Below, piece after piece: positions 3,873 through 62,644 of a DNA stretch of 64,000 nt. Origin of the DNA: an uncultured Alphaproteobacteria bacterium. Its GTDB lineage: Bacteria; Pseudomonadota; Alphaproteobacteria; RF32; CAG-239. The notes beneath the pieces are model-generated. The model did not search any database and was not told the DNA's origin. It saw nothing but the letters and a program-made list of their open reading frames with translations. The translations under genes and the position numbers were made by a program. Within the stretch, counting starts at the first letter, position 1. Every line of letters begins with the position of its first letter. The DNA is taken from contig CALXTQ010000014.1 of NCBI GenBank assembly GCA_944391485.1, positions 1 through 64,000 of the forward strand. Reading direction: 5' to 3'.

Positions 3873-3891
3873 TTCGTTCTCCTCAAATAAT

Positions 3892-4291
3892 TCAGGCAGC
3901 CTGTAAGCCGGGTTCTGTACGCCTTGCGGCGCGATAGCTATTCATCTGGGCCGAACGTTGCCGTACGGCTCAACGCGACCTACCTCTGGAGTGGATTGGA
4001 AACCATCCGTATGACCGGAGCCGAAGCTCCCGCCCTCCTAACTTGGTCTTGCTTCAGACAGGGTTTACCTGGCCGGAGCTGTTGCCAGCTCCGCGGTGGG
4101 CTCTTACCCCGCCTTTTCAACCTTACCCGCTTTCTTGCCGCCGGCTCCGGCGGCCACGGGCGGTATATTTCTGCGGCACTTTCCCTCGGGTCTCCCCGGC
4201 CGGACGTTATCCGGTGTCTTGTTTCCTTGAAGCCCGGACTTTCCTCACGAACGGATTTTACTTTCCGCCGCGCAGCTATCCGGCTGCCTGT
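3892..4291 (-). ncRNA. rnpB: RNase P RNA, type A
   Basis: Catalytic RNA that trims tRNA 5' ends. The minus strand shows the hallmark GAGGAAAGTCCGGGCTTC near the 5' end (plus-strand 4228-4245 region). The P1 helix is visible as CAGGCAGCC at the 5' end (4282-4290) pairing with GGCTGCCTG at the 3' end (3893-3901), setting ends near 4291 and 3892 and a length of about 400 nt. Several GC-rich hairpins fill the interior. It sits directly ahead of lpxC, between the two halves of the dcw cluster. Confidence 0.95.
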
Positions 4292-6917: not shown

Positions 6918-7304
6918 ATGAATAGTACAAAAACTGCAACTCTGAGCCTTTGGGTAACTCTTACCTGTCTGGTCGGTTTTGGTATGTTCGTCATGAAAAA
7001 TCAGGTGCAGAATCTGGAAAGCCAGCTTGCCGGTATCAACCGCAATATTCAGGACGATATTAAAACTATTCATATTCTGAAAGCCGAATGGAGCCATCTC
7101 AACACTCCCTCCCGTCTCAGATCCCTCGCCATGAAACATATTTCGCTGAATCCGGTTAAGGCTGAACAAATTATTAACTATTCTGCGTTACCATTTGAAT
7201 ATGAATCGGGCGAATCTGGCAGAAGGCTTCTCGCCCAGAAAAACATTAGCAATCAGGCTGAGCGTAATAAAAGGCTGAAAAGACTCGTAAAAGCTCAGCG
7301 CTAA
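6918..7304 (+). CDS. ftsL: Cell division protein FtsL
   Basis: Small bitopic membrane protein of the divisome, in other bacteria a partner of FtsB and FtsQ. Residues about 8-24 form a single transmembrane helix, followed by a coiled-coil (VQNLESQLAGINRNIQDDIKTIHILKAEWSHLNTPSRLRSLA), which is the FtsL/DivIC arrangement. Sequence conservation in this family is low, so the call depends on this architecture and on the position between rsmH and ftsI. The basic C-terminal tail (NKRLKRLVKAQR) is unremarkable. Confidence 0.88.
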   Translation: MNSTKTATLSLWVTLTCLVGFGMFVMKNQVQNLESQLAGINRNIQDDIKTIHILKAEWSHLNTPSRLRSLAMKHISLNPVKAEQIINYSALPFEYESGESGRRLLAQKNISNQAERNKRLKRLVKAQR

Positions 7305-27349: not shown

Positions 27350-27516
27350 CATAGAGGGTGAGCTGTCCGGTACGTAATATCCGCAGATCTTCCGAGCCAA
27401 CGTTATTTTACAGGGAGCCGTCCCTGACACGACCGAGGTCCTGTTATATGGCGCCCACCTTATGAGAAGCGGTTCGATAAGAATGTTAAGGTACGGCTGA
27501 GACGGCACCCTCCAAA
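27350..27516 (+). ncRNA. ssrS: 6S RNA
   Basis: RNA that mimics an open promoter and sequesters sigma-70 RNA polymerase. Supported by position directly after zapA and by fold: the closing stem GAGGGTG (27354-27360) pairs with CACCCTC (27506-27512), with extended partial pairing inwards and an apical hairpin (CAGGGAGCCGTCCCTG) in the middle. The length of about 165 nt fits. The usual following gene for 5-formyltetrahydrofolate cyclo-ligase is absent; ymdB follows. End points are estimates. Confidence 0.8.
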
Positions 27517-60745: not shown

Positions 60746-61072
60746 TTACTGAAGCAGCGTCAGCACCGCGCTACGCACATTTTTGTCCTTGCTGCGGTAA
60801 CAGTTCAGAAGCTGTTTTTCCTCATCCGTTACCAGAATATCGTCCTCAACGGCTATGCCGGCAAAGAAATCCACCACGGATATGTTCATTACACTTAAGA
60901 TTTTGAGCAGACGGGCGCAGGATATCCGGTTTATGCCGGCCTCATATTTCTGAACCTGCTGAAAAACAACGCCTATTTCTTTGGCCAGCCTTTCCTGGCT
61001 GAAATTCCGGAGCTCGCGAAAATAACGCAGGCGTCTGCCGAGCTCGATATCTATCTCTCCCACTTTTGACAC
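60746..61072 (-). CDS. XRE-family regulator, 108 aa
   Basis: Helix-turn-helix protein of the alphaproteobacterial type: IELGRRLRYFRELRNFSQERLAKEIGVVFQQVQKYEAGINRISCARLLKILSVMNISVVDFF is the DNA-binding domain, with a 40-residue C-terminal helical tail. The start is a GTG at 61072 with a GGAGG ribosome-binding site five bases away. It is separated from a structured RNA (61104-61372) by an intrinsic terminator, so expression may depend on that RNA. Targets are unknown. Confidence 0.88.
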   Translation of the reverse strand: MSKVGEIDIELGRRLRYFRELRNFSQERLAKEIGVVFQQVQKYEAGINRISCARLLKILSVMNISVVDFFAGIAVEDDILVTDEEKQLLNCYRSKDKNVRSAVLTLLQ

Positions 61073-61092: not shown

Positions 61093-61122
61093 AAAAAACA
61101 AAAACCACCTGTAAAAGGTGGT
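61093..61122 (-). terminator. Intrinsic terminator between the structured RNA and the XRE gene
   Basis: ACCACC and GGTGGT pair on the minus strand (61117-61122 with 61104-61109, 7-base loop), followed by two T-runs. Three bases of its 5' arm also belong to the competing helix 61120-61129. Confidence 0.9.
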
Positions 61123-61372
61123 CGGAGAGCTGAGAAATCACATCTATAGAAATGACATTTTAGCCTTTAAGGAAATTCCTCTGAACATCCGCTAAAATCT
61201 CCCCGACCATTTATAATCTGTCGGGTTTTACACATAAGCCTCTAGCATAAGTATTTAAAGGTTTGTGCTTTCGGTGAAACTTGCCACCGCCATAGATTAA
61301 AGGCTTCTCAGGGCCCCGATTCTTTTACAAGAACCTTGAAAGCTGTGTCTTAAAACAGCCTTCTTTGTGTAA
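61104..61372 (-). ncRNA. Structured RNA with mutually exclusive helices ahead of an XRE gene
   Basis: A noncoding transcript of about 270 nt on the minus strand. A 7-bp helix 61372-61366 with 61234-61228 closes a domain containing three further hairpins (61362-61355 with 61346-61339; 61335-61329 with 61324-61318; 61306-61301 with 61241-61236, itself enclosing 61289-61285 with 61276-61272). Next, GUCGGG (61207-61202) can pair with CCCGAC (61225-61220), or as part of GGUCGGGGAG (61208-61199) with CUCUCCGACC (61129-61120). The latter is continuous with 61198-61191/61164-61157 and conflicts with the terminator stem. It is no tmRNA, SRP RNA, 6S or RNase P RNA that I recognise. Confidence 0.6.
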
Positions 61373-61480
61373 GATATACGAAATTTAAAATTTTGCAAAA
61401 ATTATTTAGCAATGCACAGCCGCTTTGCGCGGGAATCAAGTTCCCGTCCCGAGGGAGAAAGATTAGAACATGTTAATATG

Positions 61481-62644
61481 TTACTTGCCGGAGCCTTTTG
61501 CCGGCACGGCAGCCTTACGCAGATTATCGTCAACATAATGACGGACAGTCCGGCCAAATGTCTGGTTAATGTAATTGGTGAGCTCCGTCGGATGTTCCGC
61601 ATATTTTTCCGCTTCAGCCTGCGCCTGCAGCAGCTCGTCTATTTTCATAACCTTTTCTAGAGCGTCGCGCTTTTCGGCGGCTTTGGGCGCTCCCCGAACC
61701 GCCGCAATGTTGAACAGAACATGCGCCCGGTAAATGTCTTTCGGAAAGGCGCTACCGGTTGCCAGGATATCACCTAGCTGCGTCATGGCCTCGACATGCC
61801 CCTGATTAATGGCCATTTTCAGAAAACGCACCGCGTTGCCATAGTTTTTGGTAATGCCGTCGCCATTCAGATACATCAGCGCCAGTACATATTCGGCATC
61901 GTCATAATGAACATTCGCCGCCTCGCGAATCAGAGATACGGCTTTCTTATAGTCTTTGGGAACAACAAACCCTTTATAATAGGCATAGCCGAGCATGAAT
62001 TTGGCGGTCGGATTGTCTTTTCTGGCGGCTTGCTTAAACAGCTCCATAGCTGCCCGGCTGTTTTTTCCGACATTCTCGCCGCTCAGATAAATAAACGCCA
62101 GATTAACGGACGCCTCGACATTTCCGAGCTTGGCTGCGCGGTCAAACATGGCGGCAGCTTTCAGATAATTTTTTTCCGTGCCGATACCGCTGTAATACAG
62201 GCTCCCCACATTATTGACGGCGATGCTGTCATTCTGGGCCGCAGCCATGGAATAATAGCGAAAGGCCTTTTCATAATCTTTGGAAACGCCGTTTTCACCA
62301 TAAAGGTACATATATCCCAAAGTCAGCTGGGAGTTGACATCGCCTTCTTCCGCCTGACGGGTAACCCGCTCGACAAAACTTTCCTTTCCCTCATTGGGGC
62401 GCGCTTTTACTTTCGGCGCTTCTTTCTTTTTGCCAAAACTGAAATTCATGAATGAGAAAATGCCTTTATCCTCATCCTCTTTGTCCGCCGAGACACTTTC
62501 TTTCTCCTCTTTCAGAGAATCTACGGCATCCATGAGCGTCAGTTCCTGCTTATTATCGTTCTGTCCGATATCAAGCTGCGGCTGCGCCGCGGCGGCAGAA
62601 ACGCTTCCCAGCAAAAATAAAAACACCCACATATATTTCCGCAT
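61481..62644 (-). CDS. Secreted Sel1-repeat (TPR-like) protein
   Basis: Signal peptide MRKYMWVFLFLLGSVSAAAAQ, an acidic/basic linker of about 70 residues, then six Sel1-like repeats from about residue 95 to 310 (VNSQLTLGYMYLYGENGVSKDYEKAFRYYSMAAA and five similar 36-residue units), and a C-terminal helical segment (ALEKVMKIDELLQAQAEAEKYAEHPTELTNYI). Sel1 repeats mediate protein-protein contacts, commonly in periplasmic or secreted complexes. It stands alone, 27 bases after the next gene upstream on the same strand, so it could be co-transcribed with it. Confidence 0.9.
   Translation of the reverse strand: MRKYMWVFLFLLGSVSAAAAQPQLDIGQNDNKQELTLMDAVDSLKEEKESVSADKEDEDKGIFSFMNFSFGKKKEAPKVKARPNEGKESFVERVTRQAEEGDVNSQLTLGYMYLYGENGVSKDYEKAFRYYSMAAAQNDSIAVNNVGSLYYSGIGTEKNYLKAAAMFDRAAKLGNVEASVNLAFIYLSGENVGKNSRAAMELFKQAARKDNPTAKFMLGYAYYKGFVVPKDYKKAVSLIREAANVHYDDAEYVLALMYLNGDGITKNYGNAVRFLKMAINQGHVEAMTQLGDILATGSAFPKDIYRAHVLFNIAAVRGAPKAAEKRDALEKVMKIDELLQAQAEAEKYAEHPTELTNYINQTFGRTVRHYVDDNLRKAAVPAKGSGK

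Follow-up and report, generated by a model that had tools for sequence, protein, structure and literature searches.

The locus and the parts of the element

In the window (the whole 64,000-nucleotide stretch of DNA that was analysed), the element occupies 61363-61093 on the minus strand, where it lies ahead of an XRE gene; it belongs to a structured RNA family that is present in many copies. It is flanked by this XRE gene (60746-61072, minus) on one side and by a Sel1-repeat gene (61481-62644, minus) on the other. The window also carries a class A RNase P RNA at 3888-4291 on the minus strand (Rfam RF00010, 278 bits) and a 6S RNA at 27357-27512 on the plus strand (Rfam RF00013, 64.7 bits). The pieces named in the original prediction were all found on the minus strand where it had placed them: CCCGAC at 61225-61220, GGTCGGGGAG at 61208-61199, CTCTCCGACC at 61129-61120 and the terminator at 61123-61093. 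The features of the window copy are as follows.

61373-61378, minus: candidate -10 TATATC, in an over-represented TATAAT-like zone upstream of H1; promoter not certain
61338-61363, minus: 5' hairpin GAAGGCUGUUUUAAGACACAGCUUUC, from the sequence and minimum-free-energy fold; varies from copy to copy
61318-61335, minus: H0 hairpin GGUUCUU-GUAA-AAGAAUC; homologues have a hairpin at the equivalent position (GUACC..GGUAC etc.)
61300-61317, minus: H1 hairpin GGGGC-CCUGAGAA-GCCUU with an 8-nt loop1; homologues have a 7-9 nt loop
61305-61311, minus: PK1 5' strand CUGAGAA, in loop1 of H1; own versus swapped partner test
61290-61297, minus: PK2 5' strand AUCUAUGG, in the linker 3' of H1; own versus swapped test, 8 bp in the window copy
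61272-61289, minus: H3 hairpin CGGUG..CACCG; position conserved in alignment A2
61220-61225, minus: anti-P strand CCCGAC; pairs with GUCGGG at 61207-61202
61199-61208, minus: helix P 5' strand GGUCGGGGAG (the same as GGTCGGGGAG); P has 10 covarying pairs
61157-61198, minus: H4 hairpin with a near-invariant internal loop, G-N-AUGU-Y-CA / UAAAG; covariation and conservation across the class
61136-61156, minus: H2 hairpin GUCAU..GUGAUU, whose loop carries the PK2 3' strand; 6 pairs, 5 changed on both sides
61142-61149, minus: PK2 3' strand CUAUAGAU, in the H2 loop; own versus swapped test
61130-61136, minus: PK1 3' strand UUCUCAG, adjoining the P 3' strand; own versus swapped test
61120-61129, minus: helix P 3' strand CUCUCCGACC (the same as CTCTCCGACC); 61123-61120 common to P and the terminator
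61093-61123, minus: intrinsic terminator GACCACCT-TTTAC-AGGTGGTT with an 8-bp stem and a U tract
60746-61072, minus: downstream XRE (HTH_3) gene with a GTG start; Shine-Dalgarno sequence UGGAGG at 61084-61079; Pfam PF01381, 5.5e-11

Conservation of the RNA reaches at least as far 5' as 61335, with H0, and probably takes in the 5' hairpin at 61363-61338 too. In the gut lineage, TATAAT-like hexamers (at least 5 of 6 bases) are enriched 50-60 nt upstream of H1, with 44 in two 5-nt bins as compared to about 9 per bin. The window copy has no good -35; the promoter, which the original prediction had called unclear, is uncertain, with TATATC as its candidate -10. The 269-nt RNA has a fold of -92.3 kcal/mol as compared to -63.3 kcal/mol for dinucleotide shuffles (z = -6.25; 0 of 200 shuffles match it), and the opposite strand folds less well (z = -3.92). 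G-U pairs are frequent on the element strand, which argues for an RNA rather than a DNA function.

A multicopy family in Alphaproteobacteria and on plasmids

In a nucleotide search run against 57 relatives, genomes of the window's family each contained numerous matches to 61210-61104, whereas sequence conservation of the 5' part was confined to one congener. We built a covariance model, R1, from 28 homologues (alignment A1); it spans 94 positions and 27 pairs and does not include the upstream domain. With R1, copies were found in 126 of 152 genomes from the window's family (E≤0.001), in 45 of 49 genomes in a sample of the order and in 39 of 385 genomes sampled across Alphaproteobacteria. The window's own genome holds four strong copies and a weak one, and two genomes of about 1.5-1.6 Mb in the order sample hold at least 85 and at least 71, lower bounds because scoring covered no more than 86 candidates in each genome. 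Homologues are present in Agrobacterium vitis (chromosome and Ti plasmid), Rhizobium, Shinella, Microvirga, Methylobacterium, Celeribacter, Paracoccus, Sphingomonas and Rickettsiales, and hundreds of rhizobial plasmids carry the element. Outside Alphaproteobacteria, homologues occur in a few Acidobacteria (Granulicella rosea) and Verrucomicrobia. A phage record from human gut holds a copy (MT835859.1, 16542-16655; 73.5% identity, E 2e-8). On L305 (genome G453) the downstream module appears twice, at 1901-1987 and 2020-2107, 32 nt apart, possibly a tandem arrangement.

Covariation of the nested helices and two interlocked pseudoknots

The original prediction had proposed looking for covariation in homologues, and compensatory changes are abundant there. 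Pairing was counted for the nested helices P, H4 (outer and inner stems) and H2 in 102 and 83 distinct rows aligned with the covariance model, where it holds in 97.2% and 96.2% of cells; these alignments were fitted to the structure, so that the independent test is the upstream domain, outside R1. Both sides have changed in 22 of 27 nested pairs, none of 500 shuffles reaches any of the measures, and sliding the partner columns by 1-3 positions destroys the signal. Helix P is paired in 98-99% of cells over its 10 pairs, 6 of which show changes on both sides, and H4 covaries in all 7 outer and 4 inner pairs. The internal-loop bases of H4 (AUGU-Y-CA/UAAAG) are near-invariant across the class, as in the conserved core of an aptamer.

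For the upstream domain, we located H1 from its stem alone, blind to the pairing partner, in 247 of 259 usable homologues (loop of 7-9 nt), and compared the pairing of each copy with its own partner to that with swapped partners. The H1 loop pairs with its own linker before P (PK1) over 6.15 bp as compared to 3.84 bp for swapped partners (sd 0.07), and PK2 joins the linker after H1 to the H2 loop over 7.43 bp as compared to 4.94 bp, with 239 distinct linker sequences; z is about 34 and about 37 (n = 247 for both), which is not a strict probability, the sequences being related, and subsets of distinct sequences agree. When the gut/rumen lineage is divided by hand from the others, using record titles and genome kinship, z is 26 for PK1 and 39 for PK2 within it and 18 and 9 in the other lineages; both pairings are also present in individual Acidobacteria. 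PK1 and PK2, both outside R1, covary even more strongly than the nested helices. In the window's genome, PK2 is kept in 5 of 5 copies and PK1 in 4 of 5. In the genome with at least 85 copies (G022), the PK2 helix differs in each of the 38 copies examined and reaches at least 7 bp, mostly 8, in 35 of them. A third pairing (PK3), between the H3 loop and AUAUCC, can be seen clearly by eye in many gut relatives (GGAUAU/AUAUCC) but is weak in the window copy, at only about 4 bp; a coarse test gave a modest difference, 7.45 versus 6.69.

Taken together, P, PK1 and PK2 form two interlocked pseudoknots that join the upstream and downstream domains. The original prediction had described a multibranched domain closed by a 7-bp helix. 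The helices that it drew are present, but the closing stem is really PK1 (CUGAGAA/UUCUCAG) together with PK2 (AUCUAUGG/CUAUAGAU), which look like such a stem because a nested folding program cannot draw a pseudoknot with the 10-bp helix P.

Alternative pairing of helix P and the terminator

Two mutually exclusive helices had been proposed for GUCGGG, the second of them taking bases from the terminator's 5' arm, and both parts of this proposal hold up: the GGUCGGGGAG/CUCUCCGACC helix and the upstream anti-P pairing are each conserved, and G-A-C-C (61123-61120) is common to the 10-bp helix P and the 5' arm of the terminator. In the gut lineage, the anti-P run is 8.26 bp long as compared to 5.31 bp for shuffled upstream sequence and 8.00 bp (sd 0.04) for swapped partners; it reaches at least 7 bp in 87% of copies, versus 16% with shuffled upstream sequence. 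Covariation of anti-P is slight (8.26 versus 8.00) because its sequence is nearly invariant. In 84% of gut-lineage copies, a terminator-like 3' arm is complementary to the end of P over at least 5 bp and is followed by a T-rich tail. Because anti-P is conserved and this arm is so frequent, the alternative pairing and the terminator are lineage-wide and no accident of the window copy. P, anti-P and the terminator thus have bases in common that are conserved in the gut lineage, the geometry of a riboswitch-type expression platform with predicted switching.

In nested energy calculations, which leave out the pseudoknots, the fold with anti-P and terminator has -88.0 kcal/mol as compared to -75.3 kcal/mol when P is forced; as isolated duplexes, PK1 and PK2 are estimated at -7.5 and -6.5. 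In this model, the two states are plausibly close in energy.

Many copies outside the gut lineage are without the terminator, and 34 of 84 have another conserved hairpin, GCGGGGRCGNACCGC, 3' of the element (e.g. L096, L129, L139 and L163); the output may differ in these lineages. Kissing of this rhizobial hairpin with the H0 loop looked plausible by eye and failed the swap test (4.94 versus 5.00). In non-gut copies, CUCCCC can pair with the Shine-Dalgarno region over at least 6 bp in 34%, versus 2% in random windows, a control that ignores the purine-rich nature of the Shine-Dalgarno sequence, so that this pairing is no more than a lead.

Genes downstream of the element

Among gut-lineage elements, 154 of 159 are followed by an open reading frame on the same strand (called by a simple finder, not from annotation), and the quartiles of the distance to its start codon are 44/50/54 nt. 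Across Alphaproteobacteria the element stands before hundreds of unrelated genes. Those that follow it in the gut lineage bear no relation to one another and include glycosyltransferases (10 of 94), XRE-type regulators, outer-membrane and BspA-like proteins, pilins, nucleases and SLOG proteins. The XRE gene is just one among dozens of kinds. Elsewhere the downstream genes encode TraM, RovC/DUF2285 and HTH proteins and restriction enzymes, and one copy precedes a gene for a GGDEF protein. Such tight spacing to same-strand starts of unrelated genes places the element in cis, in the 5' leader, as is the case for riboswitches.

Nearly all copies examined in the genome with more than 80 copies precede pilin-like genes: a pilin-like protein (GRSMIEMLGVLAIIGVLSVGG...) follows 37 of 38 copies with called genes (L212-L251). 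Pilin-like genes are very greatly expanded in this genome. In a Rickettsiales metagenome-assembled genome, consecutive copies at L126:5972-6059 and 7058-7148 each have a pilin-like gene (GFSLVELSIVLVILG) directly 3' of them.

TraM is the antiactivator of TraR and sets the threshold of Ti-plasmid conjugation. On pTi_CFBP6549, pTi-SAKURA and pSinA, the element ends immediately 5' of traM (L313:7990-8240, L314:8001-8221 and L318:1501-1751), and 259 plasmid records match at least 80% of a query made of the traM leader. In the Ti copy, P (GGCCGGGGG/CCCCCGGCU), PK1 (UUAGAAU/AUUCUAA) and PK2 (AGAUGAA/UUCAUCU) all persist despite base changes. With a leader RNA on traM, the question of what adjusts TraM becomes directly testable.

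Proposed mechanism and alternatives

The evidence points to the element being the 5' leader of the XRE-gene mRNA and a member of a new class of cis-regulatory RNA, in which P would be set against the upstream anti-P hairpin and the terminator, and we consider this likely. By comparison of homologues, the upstream domain (H0, H1, linker and H3) and the downstream domain (P, H4 and H2) are locked by the two interlocked pseudoknots, as loop1 of H1 pairs with the linker 3' of H2 and the linker 3' of H1 pairs with the H2 loop. Helix P (GGUCGGGGAG/CUCUCCGACC) stacks beside PK1 and draws bases from the terminator arm. We infer an ON state in which the domains dock, whether or not a ligand, ion or protein takes part, so that P forms, the terminator is weakened and the gene is read. 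In the corresponding OFF state, the domains would not dock, the 5' strand of P would be held in the anti-P hairpin, leaving CUCUCCGACCACC free, the terminator would form and transcription would stop; the polarity of the two states is likewise inferred. A sensor or docking site would most plausibly lie in the near-invariant H4 internal loop (AUGUYCA/UAAAG).

A narrower form of this reading, to which we give tentative credence, is a small-molecule riboswitch proper, in which the H4/PK core would be the aptamer for a metabolite or second messenger whose binding stabilises docking and P. The near-invariant unpaired core throughout the class and the expression-platform geometry suit it, as do the large number of copies per genome and the diversity of their targets, which recall second-messenger riboswitches, and the copy before the GGDEF protein. 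The downstream genes offer neither a coherent pathway nor a ligand, however, and a protein or signals of a general kind would explain the data just as well; because these genes are accessory (surface proteins, glycosyltransferases, regulators and TraM) and do not make up one pathway, a general signal is more probable than a metabolite from a single pathway. A passive structured leader, serving as an mRNA stabiliser or protein-binding site and free of any conformational switch, seems rather unlikely. Its fold would be strongly conserved, as observed, anti-P barely covaries, and TraM protein was reported lower in A. tumefaciens when hfq is mutated (PMC4201532), so that an RNA-binding protein could act; but a passive leader leaves aside the bases that P and the terminator share in most gut-lineage copies and the two conserved alternative partners of GGUCGGGG.

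The fixed spacing to unrelated same-strand genes speaks against the independent small RNA that the original prediction had kept as its main alternative. Although the element has its own candidate promoter and terminator, and a terminated leader would be freed as an RNA of about 270 nt, a trans-acting role is improbable: its location is that of a leader, its terminator bases are common with P, and each of its many copies is internally complementary in its own way. Likewise improbable is a mobile repeat, either of the MITE type or a cassette of promoter and leader, that spread by transposition or recombination with a structure serving mobility. The element is indeed multicopy, dispersed, plasmid-borne and found in scattered phyla and one phage record; yet mean identity among the copies of G022 is 71%, unlike the near-identical copies of a MITE, nearly all of these copies have compensated, copy-specific helices, and orientation and distance to genes are fixed. 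The switching leader would itself allow for copies that multiplied through duplication of gene cassettes.

Beyond the window copy, it is possible, somewhat short of an even chance, that the switching leader represents a global, previously undescribed riboswitch-like class of Alphaproteobacteria in which a private pseudoknot pair closes each copy like a lock. If so, private locks would stop more than 80 copies per cell from cross-pairing while all of them answer one signal, and the TraM brake on Ti-plasmid conjugation would gain an RNA layer. A ligand, if it exists, would be a new signal by which bacteria of gut, soil and plants control their surface and mobile genes. The more than 80 leader copies of one genome, with their copy-specific compensated helices, offer a natural setting in which to study RNA tertiary pairing and the ways in which cells avoid crosstalk among similar RNA switches.

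Comparison with known RNAs

The RNA is large, common and absent from Rfam, and plasmids that rank among the best studied in microbiology carry it. Rfam 15 (4227 families) gave no match to the window copy or to a diverse sample of homologues, neither at gathering threshold nor at E≤10, in keeping with the original prediction, which had not recognised the aptamer as a known class and had proposed this search. tmRNA, SRP RNA and known riboswitches were ruled out, with no Rfam or ARAGORN match. Searches of the literature for a leader RNA of traM, for riboswitch candidates from Alphaproteobacteria and for orphan riboswitches, with subscription journals and preprints mostly outside their scope, found no description of this RNA. 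Matches to the Aggregatibacter sRNAs RF02732 (JA04) and RF02731 (JA03) are at chance level, with 22 and 13.5 bits, far under the gathering scores of 81 and 44 (E>1), and the JA04 match lies mostly on the terminator hairpin. Since every covariance-model test failed, membership in any known class is unsupported.

The Rhizobiales sRNA Atu_Ti1 (RF02506), found on Ti plasmids, lies like the element in the traB-traM neighbourhood, but at another place and on another strand (L313:6355-6446, minus), and does not match it. Terminator-type riboswitches, such as the c-di-GMP classes, occur in many copies per genome. With these riboswitches the element has in common a position in the 5' leader, an unpaired conserved core, an antiterminator/terminator geometry and many scattered targets; it is unlike those in Rfam in that it matches none by sequence or covariance model, is larger, has two interlocked pseudoknots and has hypervariable but compensated helices. 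EAR lies upstream of exopolysaccharide genes. Like the EAR and put antitermination leaders, the element is a large structured cis RNA that would act on transcription; in contrast to them, it often stands before single small genes, is without an Rfam match and has a local terminator within it. We place the element in a new class of cis-regulatory leader RNA that probably works like a transcriptional riboswitch or attenuator.
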